This document shows, in pieces, positions 18,584 to 22,701 of a stretch of DNA of 64,000 nucleotides. Under the pieces are notes generated by a model. That model worked only from the letters and a program-made list of their open reading frames with translations, searched no databases and had not been told where the DNA came from. The DNA comes from Cellulophaga algicola DSM 14237 (GTDB lineage: Bacteria > Bacteroidota > Bacteroidia > Flavobacteriales > Flavobacteriaceae), in NCBI RefSeq assembly GCF_000186265.1, contig NC_014934.1, positions 3,162,001 through 3,226,000 of the forward strand, written 5' to 3'. The position numbers and the translations under genes are program-made. Every line of letters begins with the position of its first letter. Positions within the stretch are counted from its first letter, which is position 1.

Positions 18584-18605
18584 GGAAAATAACATAAGAT
18601 ATATG

Positions 18606-18636
18606 AAAGGCTACTCAGTGATGAGTGGCCTTTTTT
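18606..18636. terminator. Terminator between ndk and the helicase gene
   Basis: Stem GGCTACTCA (18609-18617) pairs with TGAGTGGCC (18622-18630) with one G-T pair, followed by six T residues on the plus strand and flanked by A on the other side. It sits between convergent genes; the helicase stop codon lies at its right edge. Confidence 0.8.
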
Positions 18637-21600
18637 AGTTTAGAACTTTAATAAACTCGCCAATAACCCTCATTTCATTACTGTTGTCTTCATTGATAAG
18701 GATATTTTTAAAATTATCATTATAAGAGTTAGGTTTCAATATAATTGAATTGTGCTGCCAACCTTCTTCTGTAATAATCTTCTCACTCGTATAGGTTTTG
18801 ATGGTAAAAGCAGAATTAAAATCAGGGTCTAGGGCATCTCTGTTTTCTATGAGTAAAATTTTTCCATTGCGAGAACCGGTTACGTTTTTTTTGAATAAAC
18901 ATATTGAGTTATTTGGAATGATCTTGTTCATTGATTCTCCTATAACTTTACATGCGAAAAATTCTTGTGTAGCAAATCTTTCTTGCACGGGAAGCAAACT
19001 GTAATCTTTTTCATCTTGCATTTCACTAAAGCTACCAGCTGCTGCGTGAAAATCATATAGAGGGATTGTGAATTCAGATACTTTTCCTTCTTCTTTTGAT
19101 TTTATTTCGAAATTAAGATTATTTGGAGCGAGTTTCTCTTCTTTTACTGCAGTTATGTAATTGTATAAGTCGTCTTTTACTGGTTGTTCTAATTGAAACT
19201 TAAAATGTACGACAGGTTTACTTGATTCAGGCATTTCTGCTTGTTGGATAGAATTCTTTATAATTGATACATCTCCCATGAAGTAGAAGTCAGTTCCTTC
19301 TGCATCTTCTTTTTTTACGAATAATAATATCCGCTTTGAAGCGACTACATTTTTTATTTCTTGACTTGATAATTTTCTGTTTGACCGGGATTCCCATGCG
19401 AAAACCGATGGGGAAACGAAGTAGTCATTATACTTTATGGTGTCTTCAATATCATCAGATTTATGATAAGTTACAAAACAAGGAGTAATTTCATTTCTTG
19501 TTCTGTAACCGTATACAGTACTACTAACATCATTTTCCCAGTTCAATAATCTACAAACATCTTTACGACTATATTTATTGAAAAGAAGCAATCCATCTCT
19601 GTAATAATCTTTGTTGAAATTTTTATTGAAGGTGTGTATTGAGTAAGTTATAGAATCAAGTAAGAACTCCTTAAAAGTAGTGTTTGAAAGTAAAGTAATA
19701 AATTCATCATAAAATTTGAAAGTTCTATTTTCTATAAAAATAATTTTCTCTTCCTTTCGGATAAAGCTGAAATTAATATTTGAAATACAGGATTTTATAG
19801 TTTCAGCACTTGGTTTGTAGTGATATTTCTCAAATATCAATTCATTTAAATTTGAAATACTTAACTCGTGATTATTTAATAGTTCCTTTAGAATAATACT
19901 TTCTTCAACTCTTTTTGCGTTGTTAATTTCTTTTGAAAAAAGCTCTAATAATCCAGAAAGATTTTTGTCTAAAAATTTATCAAATGTTTTGTCTACTTTG
20001 TTGATGAAATTAAAGTACGACTTCGAGTATTCAATGAATGAGAAAGGCTCTCTCGCTTCATTGTTTACAAAGTCCATCATCATGGGAATACGTCCAATCC
20101 TACTTTTTAAATTATTGTAATCTATTTTTAGATCAGATAACAATTGCATTTTCGCTGAATCAATGGAAGCATAGATTTTTTCTTTAGTGATTTCATCAAA
20201 ATTAATAGTTGATTCTCCTGGAATCATACTACTACCCTCAGAAATTAATTTTCTTATTTTGTCTTTATTAAAGGAGGTGTCTCCATATAAAGCTATTGGT
20301 ATTAAATAATTATTTTTATAGTTGCCAATAAAATCAATGATTGTTAAATAATATTTGTTGTCTGTCTTTCTTAATCCTCGTCCTAATTGCTGTATGAATA
20401 TTATTGCAGATTGGGTTGGACGAATCATTATGACTTGATTGATTTTTGGTATATCAATTCCTTCATTAAAAATGTCAATAGTAAATATGTAATCTAATTT
20501 TATTGCTAAATCATCACTTTCTAATAATTCAATGGCATTTGTTCTTTCCTGTTCTGAACTATCTCCTGTTAAAGCAACTGTCTTGTATCCTTTTTGATTG
20601 AATTTATCTGATAATTCTTTGGCTTCATCTTTTTTGGAGCAAAAAATTAAACCTCTTGTAATTCCATTATCAGAACCATAAAATTCAATTTTAGAAATAA
20701 TTTTACTAACTCTTTCGTCGGCTGTTAAAAGTCTGAAGTCTGATTCATTTTCAAGTATTTCATCATTAACAGATAAATCTGTGACTCCATAGTAATGAAA
20801 AGGAATAAGCATATTCTCTTCCATAGCTTTATTAAGTCTTATCTCATAAGCTATATTGTGGTCATATAAGGTATAAATGTCTTTATCGTCTGTTCTATCA
20901 GGTGTTGCAGTCATCCCAAGAAGAAACCTTGGGTTGAAATAATCTATTAATCTAATATATGAATCTGCTCCAGAACGATGGGATTCATCAATAATAATGT
21001 AATCGAAGAAATCTTTTTCAAATTGTTCTAAATGGTTTGATTTAGAAATTGTTTGTACAGTTGAAAACAAAAAGTCTTTGTCAAGTTCTCTTTGTTGACC
21101 AGAGTACAGACCCATTGTTCTGGTGTCTCTAAAAATAGTTTGAAAAGTTTTCATTGCTTTTTTTGCAATGTTTAGTCTATGAACAACGAATAAAAGCTTT
21201 TTAGGATTAAAATCTTTGGCATCAAAAGCTGCTAAATAGGTTTTACCTGTTCCGGTTGCCGAAATTATAAGCGCTTTATTATTTAGTTTTCTTAAGTTTT
21301 TTAAATTCTCTAATGCTTCAGTTTGCATAGAGTTAGGAGTTATTTCTAAATTTAACTCTTTTGATAATTCTTCTTTACTTTTTTTATATACTAGCGATTG
21401 CTTTTTGTATATGTCTTCATATTTTTCAATATAAGTTTCATCTACAATTTCGCCTATTTCAAAATCATCTTGAAATTCGTTAATCACTTTATCTACTAAG
21501 GAGCTTGAGTATCTTGCTGAAACTTTCATATTCCACTCTTTATTAGTAGATAATGCGGATGAAGTTAAATTACTACTTCCAATAACTAAGTTGTAGTATT

Positions 21601-22000
21601 CAGAGTGCTTAAAAATATACCCTTTGGAATGTGAGTCTTCTTTGGTTATTATTTTTAATTCTATATTTTGAAATTGTAAAAGTCTTTTTAACGCTTCGGG
21701 TTGTGTGAAGTTTAGATACTGAGAAACAAGGATTTTTCCTTTTACACCTTTTTCTTCAAGTGTTTTAAATGTGTTTATTAAAGTAGCAACACCGCTTGTT
21801 GTAACAAAAGCAACAGATATATAAAAGCTTTCGCAGTTTTCTAATTCTTTAATAATAGTAGTTAGAACTTTCTTTCTAGGAATTTTTCGATTGACAAGTA
21901 GTTCTGGTTGATATAAAGCGTCGGATTCTAAGGATTTATCAATGAACCCAGTTAATAGGCTATCTCTAAAATCATTATTAAATATTTTATCCATGCTCAA
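18635..22000 (-). CDS. PLD nuclease-like / SF2 helicase / DUF3427 / S24 peptidase multidomain protein
   Basis: A 1121-residue cytosolic protein. Residues about 40-180 form a phospholipase-D-type nuclease half-site (HSK at 124-126, GSSN at 141-144). Residues about 215-570 are an SF2 helicase: Walker A SATGTGKT (247-254), DESH (338-341), TATP, and motif VI QQLGRGLRK. A DUF3427-like region follows (about 590-970). The last ~135 residues are a LexA/UmuD-like S24 domain with Ser1023 in GESM, a probable Lys1068, and an Ala988-Gly989 pair 35 residues before the serine. The start overlaps the NUDIX gene by 14 bases. The combination suggests a defence or DNA-damage function with possible self-cleavage; no function is established here. 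Confidence 0.85.
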   Translation of the reverse strand: MSMDKIFNNDFRDSLLTGFIDKSLESDALYQPELLVNRKIPRKKVLTTIIKELENCESFYISVAFVTTSGVATLINTFKTLEEKGVKGKILVSQYLNFTQPEALKRLLQFQNIELKIITKEDSHSKGYIFKHSEYYNLVIGSSNLTSSALSTNKEWNMKVSARYSSSLVDKVINEFQDDFEIGEIVDETYIEKYEDIYKKQSLVYKKSKEELSKELNLEITPNSMQTEALENLKNLRKLNNKALIISATGTGKTYLAAFDAKDFNPKKLLFVVHRLNIAKKAMKTFQTIFRDTRTMGLYSGQQRELDKDFLFSTVQTISKSNHLEQFEKDFFDYIIIDESHRSGADSYIRLIDYFNPRFLLGMTATPDRTDDKDIYTLYDHNIAYEIRLNKAMEENMLIPFHYYGVTDLSVNDEILENESDFRLLTADERVSKIISKIEFYGSDNGITRGLIFCSKKDEAKELSDKFNQKGYKTVALTGDSSEQERTNAIELLESDDLAIKLDYIFTIDIFNEGIDIPKINQVIMIRPTQSAIIFIQQLGRGLRKTDNKYYLTIIDFIGNYKNNYLIPIALYGDTSFNKDKIRKLISEGSSMIPGESTINFDEITKEKIYASIDSAKMQLLSDLKIDYNNLKSRIGRIPMMMDFVNNEAREPFSFIEYSKSYFNFINKVDKTFDKFLDKNLSGLLELFSKEINNAKRVEESIILKELLNNHELSISNLNELIFEKYHYKPSAETIKSCISNINFSFIRKEEKIIFIENRTFKFYDEFITLLSNTTFKEFLLDSITYSIHTFNKNFNKDYYRDGLLLFNKYSRKDVCRLLNWENDVSSTVYGYRTRNEITPCFVTYHKSDDIEDTIKYNDYFVSPSVFAWESRSNRKLSSQEIKNVVASKRILLFVKKEDAEGTDFYFMGDVSIIKNSIQQAEMPESSKPVVHFKFQLEQPVKDDLYNYITAVKEEKLAPNNLNFEIKSKEEGKVSEFTIPLYDFHAAAGSFSEMQDEKDYSLLPVQERFATQEFFACKVIGESMNKIIPNNSICLFKKNVTGSRNGKILLIENRDALDPDFNSAFTIKTYTSEKIITEEGWQHNSIILKPNSYNDNFKNILINEDNSNEMRVIGEFIKVLN

Positions 22001-22385
22001 TTAATCTATTAACTATAGGGATATCTGCTGCTGCCCAGTCTAATTTTTTTAAATTTTCTAAAGAGAGCCATTGAGAAGAAATATGTTCATTTAACTGAAT
22101 TTCACTTTTATCAGATAAACATTTGAAAACATGCATTATTAATTTGAAGTCTGGATACTGATGATTGACTGTTAAATATAGTTCATCCATAATGATTGGT
22201 ATGAAGTTTAATTCTTCTTTTAATTCTCTATATAGAGCATCATTTAATGATTCCCCATTTTCTACTTTTCCTCCAGGAAATTCAAATTTTTCGGAAATAT
22301 AAGTCAATTTGTTTTCAGGTCTTTGAACGCACAGAATCTTATCTTCAAAATAGATTATTGCAGCAACAACTTCTATCTCTTTCAT
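21987..22385 (-). CDS. NUDIX (MutT-like) nucleoside triphosphate pyrophosphohydrolase
   Basis: A 132-residue NUDIX hydrolase. The Nudix box spans residues 39-61 (Gly39, Glu45, REL at 53-55, Glu57-Glu58), with Asn in place of the last conserved glycine. The C-terminal LDWAAADIPIV resembles CTP/dNTP pyrophosphohydrolases of the MutT type. The gene begins 19 bases after the DUF721 stop and its 3' end overlaps the helicase start by 14 bases, so the two are probably translated together. It may clean a nucleotide or a signal used by the helicase partner. Confidence 0.92.
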   Translation of the reverse strand: MKEIEVVAAIIYFEDKILCVQRPENKLTYISEKFEFPGGKVENGESLNDALYRELKEELNFIPIIMDELYLTVNHQYPDFKLIMHVFKCLSDKSEIQLNEHISSQWLSLENLKKLDWAAADIPIVNRLIEHG

Positions 22386-22404
22386 TTCTTTTCAAATTTA
22401 TAAT

Positions 22405-22701
22405 CTATCGCAACACCAACTTCTTCACCACTTCTTTTTTTAGTTCTTCATTAAGCATGGAAATAATTTTAGATTTTCCGAGGCTTAATTCTGACCGTAA
22501 AACAGAGGAAGAGAGTGACACGAATAAGGTGTCTCCGCGTAATTCTATAGCCGTGGTATAATTATTAACGCCATTCCCCATAAGATTGGTCCATGCTTCT
22601 CTAACATCAACCCTATCTATACCTTTCTGTAGCTTGTTGGTGTCAATAAAGTCTTGTAAAGCTTCACTTAATGGAATGTTTTCTCTGCGTCTTTTAGCCA
22701 T
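22405..22701 (-). CDS. DUF721 (DciA-like) protein
   Basis: A 98-residue basic protein of the DUF721 family, with the core VREAWTNLMGNGVNNYT followed by TLFVSLSSSVLRSELS. DUF721 members in other bacteria (DciA) help load the replicative helicase; whether this short Bacteroidota form does so is not shown. It overlaps the upstream lipoprotein gene by one base. Confidence 0.85.
   Translation of the reverse strand: MAKRRRENIPLSEALQDFIDTNKLQKGIDRVDVREAWTNLMGNGVNNYTTAIELRGDTLFVSLSSSVLRSELSLGKSKIISMLNEELKKEVVKKLVLR

Follow-up and report, generated by a model that had tools for sequence, protein, structure and literature searches.

A NUDIX gene paired with a SauUSI-type restriction gene with a LexA-like tail: a probable accessory defence pair in Cellulophaga algicola

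Genes and setting of the locus

The window, the whole 64,000-nucleotide stretch of Cellulophaga algicola DSM 14237 analysed here (NC_014934.1, positions 3,162,001 to 3,226,000; coordinates below count from its first letter), carries two overlapping genes on its minus strand. One encodes a NUDIX hydrolase (132 amino acids, 21987..22385) and the other, directly downstream, a SauUSI-type restriction enzyme with a C-terminal S24 domain (18635..21994, 1119 amino acids from an ATG at 21994), and sequence comparison makes the locus a probable accessory bacterial defence pair. An earlier note, made from the sequence alone, had placed two open reading frames (ORFs) at 18635-22000 and 21987-22385 on this strand, and both are present there. 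The listed ORF of the large protein starts with a TTG at 22000 and encodes 1121 amino acids, and the 14-base overlap given in that note holds for this start. The overlap itself stands, but its length is probably 8 bases, with the large protein starting at the ATG at 21994, two codons inside the TTG-started frame, because the methionine at 21994 is invariant in a five-row alignment of the closest relatives and a gap of -8 is the commonest between the NUDIX and enzyme genes of S24-bearing loci (12 of the 25 gaps counted).

The pair fills the gap between ndk and dciA (18584-22404), one edge of which is a terminator-like hairpin of ndk (18605..18634, plus strand) that is retained in both empty sites compared (G005 and G016), and the other is dciA (22405..22701, minus strand), upstream of the NUDIX gene. 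The placement between ndk and a DUF721-recF segment was read correctly in the earlier note, the DUF721 neighbour being DciA in Pfam. Only 19 nucleotides separate the dciA stop from the NUDIX start on the same strand, and therefore co-transcription by read-through from the recF-dciA side is likely. The G+C fraction is 0.29 around the pair and about 0.33-0.36 nearby.

The gap was compared across 18 genomes of the genus, that of the window included, and the accessory insertion suspected in the earlier note was borne out. Four genomes (G000, G010, G014, and G011) have the pair between ndk and dciA, a diverged PLD-helicase-DUF3427 gene of about 30% identity occupies the same place in two (G001 and G013), and the gap is empty in the remaining 12. 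The diverged gene of G001 has neither an S24 domain nor a NUDIX neighbour, and that of G013 ends at a contig end, leaving its upstream side unreadable. Two subfamilies of SauUSI-type genes thus use the ndk-dciA gap as a slot, which is occupied in 6 of the 18 genomes. The pair was also found at another locus in a species of a different genus of the same family (L049), and the wider search for a conserved pair, proposed earlier, recovered it at other loci and in other phyla rather than in a single context. The NUDIX and SauUSI-like pair is accessory: it is not fixed and it occurs in several contexts, and the PLD and S24 domains on which the first reading depended are both present.

The SauUSI-family protein and its S24 tail

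The four parts that had been proposed for the large protein, a nuclease-like domain, an SF2 helicase, a DUF3427 region, and a LexA-type peptidase, are all given by Pfam. The PLDc_2 nuclease domain (residues 50-178, 21467..21853, minus strand as for all parts of this gene; 42 bits) holds H124, K126, N144, and E155, which are invariant in a 42-row alignment and which we assign as the putative catalytic four. The SF2 ATPase/helicase part (residues 220-544, 20369..21343; Pfam ResIII and Helicase_C) has the Walker A motif GTGKT and the Walker B motif DESH, and its K253, T254, D338, and E339 are invariant in the same alignment. DUF3427 (residues 688-950, 19151..19939; 260 bits) corresponds to the region that houses the SRA-like reader of 5-methylcytosine (5mC) in SauUSI, and the Peptidase_S24 domain (residues 980-1115, 18656..19063; 28.8 bits against a cut-off of 23.3) was recognized by Pfam, alignment, and fold.

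The solved SauUSI structure, PDB 7CLG, matches residues 8-950 of the large protein over residues 5-952 of its chain with 768 bits, and the PADLOC model mREase_IV matches with 790 bits. A full-length AlphaFold model (mean predicted local distance difference test score, pLDDT, 77; predicted template modelling score, pTM, 0.64) aligns with 7CLG at a template modelling (TM) score of 0.86 on the target. These matches are strong evidence, at the level of homology, for membership in the SauUSI family of modification-dependent (Type IV) restriction enzymes. The phage-defence-like reading of the earlier note thereby gains support and is narrowed by homology to a family that it had not named. SauUSI itself, of Type IV, depends on ATP and cuts DNA at S-5mC-NGS targets, in which 5-hydroxymethylcytosine (5hmC) may stand for 5mC (PMC7913695); it is presented in the title of that paper as a horizontal gene transfer barrier, and in E. 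coli a single SauUSI polypeptide is enough to restrict (PMC3874153). It is very improbable that the large protein is a DNA-repair helicase like RadD or Hef instead of a restriction enzyme. RadD is its best non-restriction match, both by profile and by structure, but it aligns with the ATPase part alone (96 bits, where the cut-off is 720, and a TM score of 0.25 on the query), whereas the SauUSI match runs from the PLD domain through the end of DUF3427, and the 12 genus genomes with an empty slot hold no match to the protein at E<=1e-60. The repair helicase was rejected on the ground that the ATPase part alone matches.

The predicted autocleavage site Ala988-Gly989 (19034..19039) and the predicted catalytic Ser1023 (18932..18934) and Lys1068 (18797..18799) of the S24 domain are kept in 43 of 43 aligned rows (34 locus ORFs and nine seeds, with some duplicates). 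Ala988 and Ser1023 lie 35 residues apart, as do A84 and S119 in E. coli LexA. In a Foldseek search with a model of the tail (mean pLDDT 74), the top match was LexA (1e-5), and all 21 matches at E<=1e-3 were LexA or lambda repressor. The N-terminal DNA-binding winged helix of LexA was not found in the Pfam scan of the large protein. The S24 residues and the LexA fold are intact, and RecA-stimulated autocleavage is the activity they would predict.

Matches to tail-less relatives stop near residue 950, and the S24 tail, present in 32 of the 81 rows of the SauUSI tree, appears at two separate positions in it (two changes forced by well-supported branches, as counted by a quick method). A relative that is sister to the main S24 clade and has no S24 (L109) encodes a protein that stops near the expected cleavage region. 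The NUDIX gene lies upstream in 42 of 48 tail-less loci that are uncut at the gene's end. The S24 tail and the NUDIX gene were considered as one module and rejected as such, the NUDIX link being much wider than S24 and S24 standing twice on the tree. Among 296 Bacteroidota genomes, 12 have an S24 tail of this kind: five on SauUSI-like proteins, six on GIY-YIG-SLFN3-type proteins (724-801 amino acids), and one at the C-terminus of an HsdR-like Type I subunit (L283:3036-6584), with a specificity subunit nearby. In the literature searched, mostly at the level of titles and abstracts, no S24-tailed restriction enzyme and no self-cleavage control of such enzymes was found.

The S24 domain may act as a LexA-type latch, in which DNA damage or infection would lead to RecA filaments and these to cleavage at Ala988-Gly989. 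Such cleavage would most likely license or free the enzyme, because the tail alone is shed and the polypeptide left is roughly as long as the tail-less enzymes. Other systems are known to alleviate restriction after DNA damage, and the tail could instead be an off-switch, with damage-triggered cleavage lowering the activity and shielding the chromosome under repair. The intact S24 residues fit any RecA-gated switch, and the loss of a dimerisation tail could still reduce activity. An off-switch is nevertheless unlikely, as cleavage between 988 and 989 would keep every domain of the tail-less SauUSI enzymes and the tail-less S. aureus enzyme of 953 amino acids is active (PMC7913695; PMC3874153).

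The NUDIX partner and its linkage

The small partner had been called a MutT-like NUDIX enzyme, and its NUDIX domain is given by Pfam; a specificity for 5-modified dCTP had not been foreseen. Its best solved match is the B. fragilis protein Q5LBB1 (PDB 3GWY; 134 bits, about 52% identical), for which kcat/Km values per M per s of 6.7e6 for 5-Me-CTP, 4.8e6 for 5-Me-dCTP, 4.4e6 for 5-MeOH-dCTP, and 8.5e4 for 5-OH-dCTP are reported, canonical NTPs being cleaved far less (PMC5158307). The 5-MeOH-dCTP of that source is read here as 5-hydroxymethyl-dCTP. The bases targeted by SauUSI, 5mC and 5hmC, are those whose triphosphates this measured relative destroys. In a 99-row NUDIX tree, 73 SauUSI-linked sequences and 3GWY form one clade (support 100/99; present in all 200 bootstrap trees examined, in a bootstrap that had not settled), and 11 sequences linked to the diverged subfamily (subfamily II) and 14 unlinked ones fall outside it. 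The window NUDIX enzyme probably cuts 5-methyl- and 5-hydroxymethyl-dCTP, to judge from its relatedness to 3GWY, the sole measured member of the clade among the sources used.

A contig scan gave 176 relatives of the large protein, and linkage was counted over the best 80 of the 176 loci. A NUDIX gene lies directly upstream in 74 of the 80, is fused to the SauUSI-like gene in one (L144, Clostridium algoriphilum), and stands adjacent, downstream and convergent, in another (L163); it was unseen in four, of which two offer hardly any or no readable sequence upstream (L108 and L125) and two are truly without it (L146 and L148). All 27 S24-bearing loci among these 80 carry NUDIX, and at five further loci the contig ends ahead of a possible S24. 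Linkage to NUDIX among close relatives is thus strongly supported by direct counts. Linked rows come from Bacteroidota, Pseudomonadota, Bacillota, Campylobacterota, Balneolota, Poribacteria, and Methanosarcinaceae. A family match was found in 40 of 395 Bacteroidota genomes, nine of them to the window's subfamily and 31 to subfamily II, and the NUDIX gene is adjacent in all nine of the former and present at 10 of the 21 loci read for the latter. In the reverse direction, seven of the 198 Bacteroidota genomes searched encode 3GWY-type proteins (E<=1e-35), and every one of the seven genes adjoins a SauUSI-like gene. The distances between partners are correlated (r=0.71 over 73 pairs, with none of 2000 permutations as high), as expected if the NUDIX and SauUSI-like genes are inherited together.

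The linkage extends to S. aureus, where an intact 953-residue ORF that matches 7CLG end to end (2066 bits), from a record labelled as an unverified Staphylococcus phage, adjoins a NUDIX gene. In a second S. aureus record, the NUDIX protein matches PDB 5X1X ('Mutator mutT protein') end to end with 286.5 bits. SauUSI-like matches were also found in 10 plasmid records, and a NUDIX gene is present in four (L196, L197, L198, and L226) of the seven regions read. On one of these, a Lactiplantibacillus plasmid (L197), NUDIX, SauUSI-like, MazG-like, and SLFN3-type helicase genes stand in one row, the last two following SauUSI. The Selenomonas plasmid pSRC2 (L225) has a NUDIX gene that adjoins no SauUSI-like gene, with nucleoside 2-deoxyribosyltransferase, macro-domain, and DUF262 proteins nearby; DUF262 is a domain given for GmrSD, an enzyme of Type IV (PMC3874153). 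No published link between SauUSI and NUDIX was found in the literature searched, mostly at title and abstract level.

A generic MutT-like cleaner of 8-oxo-dGTP, travelling with the restriction gene by chance or against oxidative stress during infection, is an improbable role for the NUDIX protein. Among the NCBIfam models, MutT (TIGR00586) scores 74.2 bits, near the 77.0 bits of E. coli NudG (NF007834), related NUDIX genes are annotated in their records as MutT or (deoxy)NTP pyrophosphohydrolase, and the S. aureus partner lies outside the 3GWY clade, no measured specificity having been seen for it. However, both equivalog cut-offs are missed (97.9 bits for MutT and 156 for NudG), and the 73 linked sequences form one clade with a 5-methyl-dCTP enzyme without the 14 unlinked ones sampled. 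The host genome has seven other NUDIX matches, and the linkage with SauUSI extends across several phyla. A plain MutT was disfavoured on the missed cut-offs and the clade membership. The window NUDIX also matches the PADLOC candidate PDC-S07 with 142 bits, but this model was rejected as a specific marker, since it also fires in 161 of the 296 Bacteroidota genomes searched and in five of 14 controls, one of which is E. coli.

If the enzyme does cut modified dCTP, it could serve as an offensive arm that destroys the 5-hydroxymethyl-dCTP pool of a phage, so that the phage would either run short of modified dCTP or have its DNA cut. The measured relative hydrolyses 5-MeOH-dCTP as well as 5-Me-dCTP (PMC5158307), and the pair is accessory, with relatives on plasmids. 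Against this role, with less modified dCTP the nuclease would have more difficulty recognizing phage DNA, and the two activities would be opposed unless another restriction system took part; moreover, the barrier to horizontal gene transfer as which SauUSI is cast (PMC7913695) needs no phage nucleotide pool. We regard the offensive role as not very likely.

Proposed mechanism, parallel pairings, and comparison with known systems

In the mechanism that we favour, with moderate confidence, for the locus as a whole, the NUDIX enzyme would guard host DNA from modified dC, the SauUSI-like enzyme would cut modified invaders, and S24 cleavage would license it. By homology, the DUF3427/SRA region of the large protein may read 5-methyl- or 5-hydroxymethyl-cytosine in invading DNA, the SF2 motor would then translocate, and the PLD nuclease would cut, as in SauUSI. 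Removal of modified dCTP by the NUDIX enzyme would mean that host DNA does not take up the base attacked by the nuclease, and the enzyme would spare its own cell.

Several observations weigh against this proposal. The NUDIX protein should be dispensable for cutting, because SauUSI restricts in E. coli as a lone polypeptide (PMC3874153). The linkage thins with distance: besides the two of the 80 closest loci that truly have no NUDIX, none was seen in three of the seven plasmid regions read (L227, L228, and L229), in three viral contigs with partial SauUSI-like genes (L230-L232), or at 11 of the 21 subfamily II loci, two of which had less than 300 bases upstream and all of which were searched with a profile from the window's subfamily. 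As regards specificity, 3GWY sits on a long branch at its 52% identity, its clade has a support of 94/68 in a second tree of 64 rows (thinned to 25 of the 73 linked rows, with 13 added rows), and the S. aureus and lactobacillus NUDIX proteins lie outside that clade there. The gene next to that of 3GWY in B. fragilis was sought without success, and the available text of PMC5158307 gives no gene context for Q5LBB1. S24 is absent from most SauUSI enzymes, and at the cleavage site the full-length model has a very low confidence that leaves it uninformative on inhibition.

The distribution of C5-methyltransferases is also equivocal. In the METHYLTRANSFERASE test within the genus, a C5-methyltransferase is present in one of six carriers of SauUSI-like genes and in 11 of 12 non-carriers (Fisher p=0.0039), a tendency to mutual exclusion that speaks for the proposal, and the window genome itself has no C5-methyltransferase match. 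For the window's subfamily alone the exclusion has p=0.083, and across 395 Bacteroidota genomes such an enzyme occurs in 14 of 40 carriers and 162 of 355 non-carriers (p=0.24), all of these statistics being uncorrected for phylogeny; both results count likewise against the proposal. Methyltransferase avoidance as a general rule was dropped, being unsupported across the phylum.

Similar pairings were observed for other nucleases. In 13 of 13 viral contigs found with the 3GWY sequence (L249-L261), all of one lineage (11 loci intact, one cut by a contig end, and one in pieces), a NUDIX gene lies immediately upstream of a gene for an SRA-HNH protein. Two of these proteins were scanned, with HNH above and SAD_SRA below the Pfam cut-off and a PADLOC assignment of mREase_IV, and one searched against PDB matched 5-methylcytosine-specific restriction enzyme A, ScoMcrA, and TagI over its HNH part. 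Six of the 13 viral NUDIX proteins were placed in the tree, as sister to the SauUSI-linked clade (joint support 95/85). A sample of SRA-HNH genes on plasmids and phages (12 regions read of 74 matching records) points the other way, as 10 of the 12 have no NUDIX and the adjacent or fused NUDIX of the other two is not in the linked clade. A Paenibacillus NUDIX-SRA-HNH fusion (L262) has a weaker NUDIX match (61 bits), and a similar fusion suspected in Tepidibacter (L265) was not found.

For the S24-tailed GIY-YIG-SLFN3-type proteins (L050-L053 and L284-L288), a MazG-like gene lies directly upstream at nine of nine loci, three of which had seeded the MazG profile; four of the nine proteins were scanned with Pfam. 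One MazG-like partner (L051) was searched, and its best solved match is dCTP pyrophosphatase 1 (DCTPP1; 4e-20), which also acts on 5-modified dCTP (PMC7162842; PMC10742078). These S24-tailed GIY-YIG-SLFN3 and MazG-like gene pairs are possibly an undescribed sister system. MazG and SLFN3-helicase genes stand near SauUSI in 6 of the 80 loci, where the SLFN3 proteins have no S24 and only two look GIY-YIG-like.

A broader reading, which we put forward tentatively and hold for somewhat less probable than the proposal for the locus itself, is that modification-dependent restriction often has two parts, a nuclease against modified cytosine and a nucleotide-pool guard against entry of that base into the host genome, the guard having been recruited more than once, joined in some cases by a transferable, RecA-gating S24 tail. 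If so, the guards would be the NUDIX enzyme with SauUSI, its sister NUDIX with SRA-HNH, and a DCTPP1-like MazG with GIY-YIG-SLFN3, the GIY-YIG-SLFN3 proteins would be predicted to be modification-dependent too, and the S24 tail, on at least three kinds of restriction or restriction-like motor-nuclease, would add RecA-gated licensing. SauUSI is described as a single-gene enzyme in the partial texts of PMC7913695 and PMC3874153, and here a partner is near constant among its close relatives. The pair offers testable answers as to how modification-dependent nucleases avoid self during salvage of modified nucleotides and what purpose bacterial 5-methyl-dCTP pyrophosphatases have, and the presence of an S24 tail suggests that DNA damage controls some restriction enzymes by way of self-cleavage.

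Among known systems, S. aureus SauUSI shares with the window enzyme the order of PLD, SF2 ATPase, and DUF3427/SRA region and a NUDIX gene directly upstream. The window enzyme is longer by about 170 C-terminal residues, comprising a linker and S24, and at 41-43% identity its ATP-dependent cutting at 5mC and 5hmC is predicted from homology. B. fragilis Q5LBB1/3GWY is the closest solved relative of the NUDIX partner and shares the clade of SauUSI-linked proteins, but at about 52% identity. The NUDIX protein also fits PDC-S07 of PADLOC, but that model alone does not mark the SauUSI-NUDIX system. The SRA-HNH nucleases (EcoKMcrA, ScoMcrA, and TagI) resemble the system in that one lineage of them is paired with NUDIX proteins of a sister clade, but they are unrelated to SauUSI, have neither an ATPase nor S24, and mostly stand without NUDIX in the plasmid and phage sample. 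Human DCTPP1/RS21-C6 is, like 3GWY, an enzyme of 5-modified dCTP and the closest solved counterpart of the L051 MazG protein, but its MazG fold is unrelated to NUDIX and it is absent from the window system. LexA, UmuD, and lambda CI have their fold, Ala-Gly site, and Ser-Lys pair all represented in the S24 domain of the window protein, which, in contrast to LexA, has no helix-turn-helix and bears its S24 as a tail on a restriction motor-nuclease.

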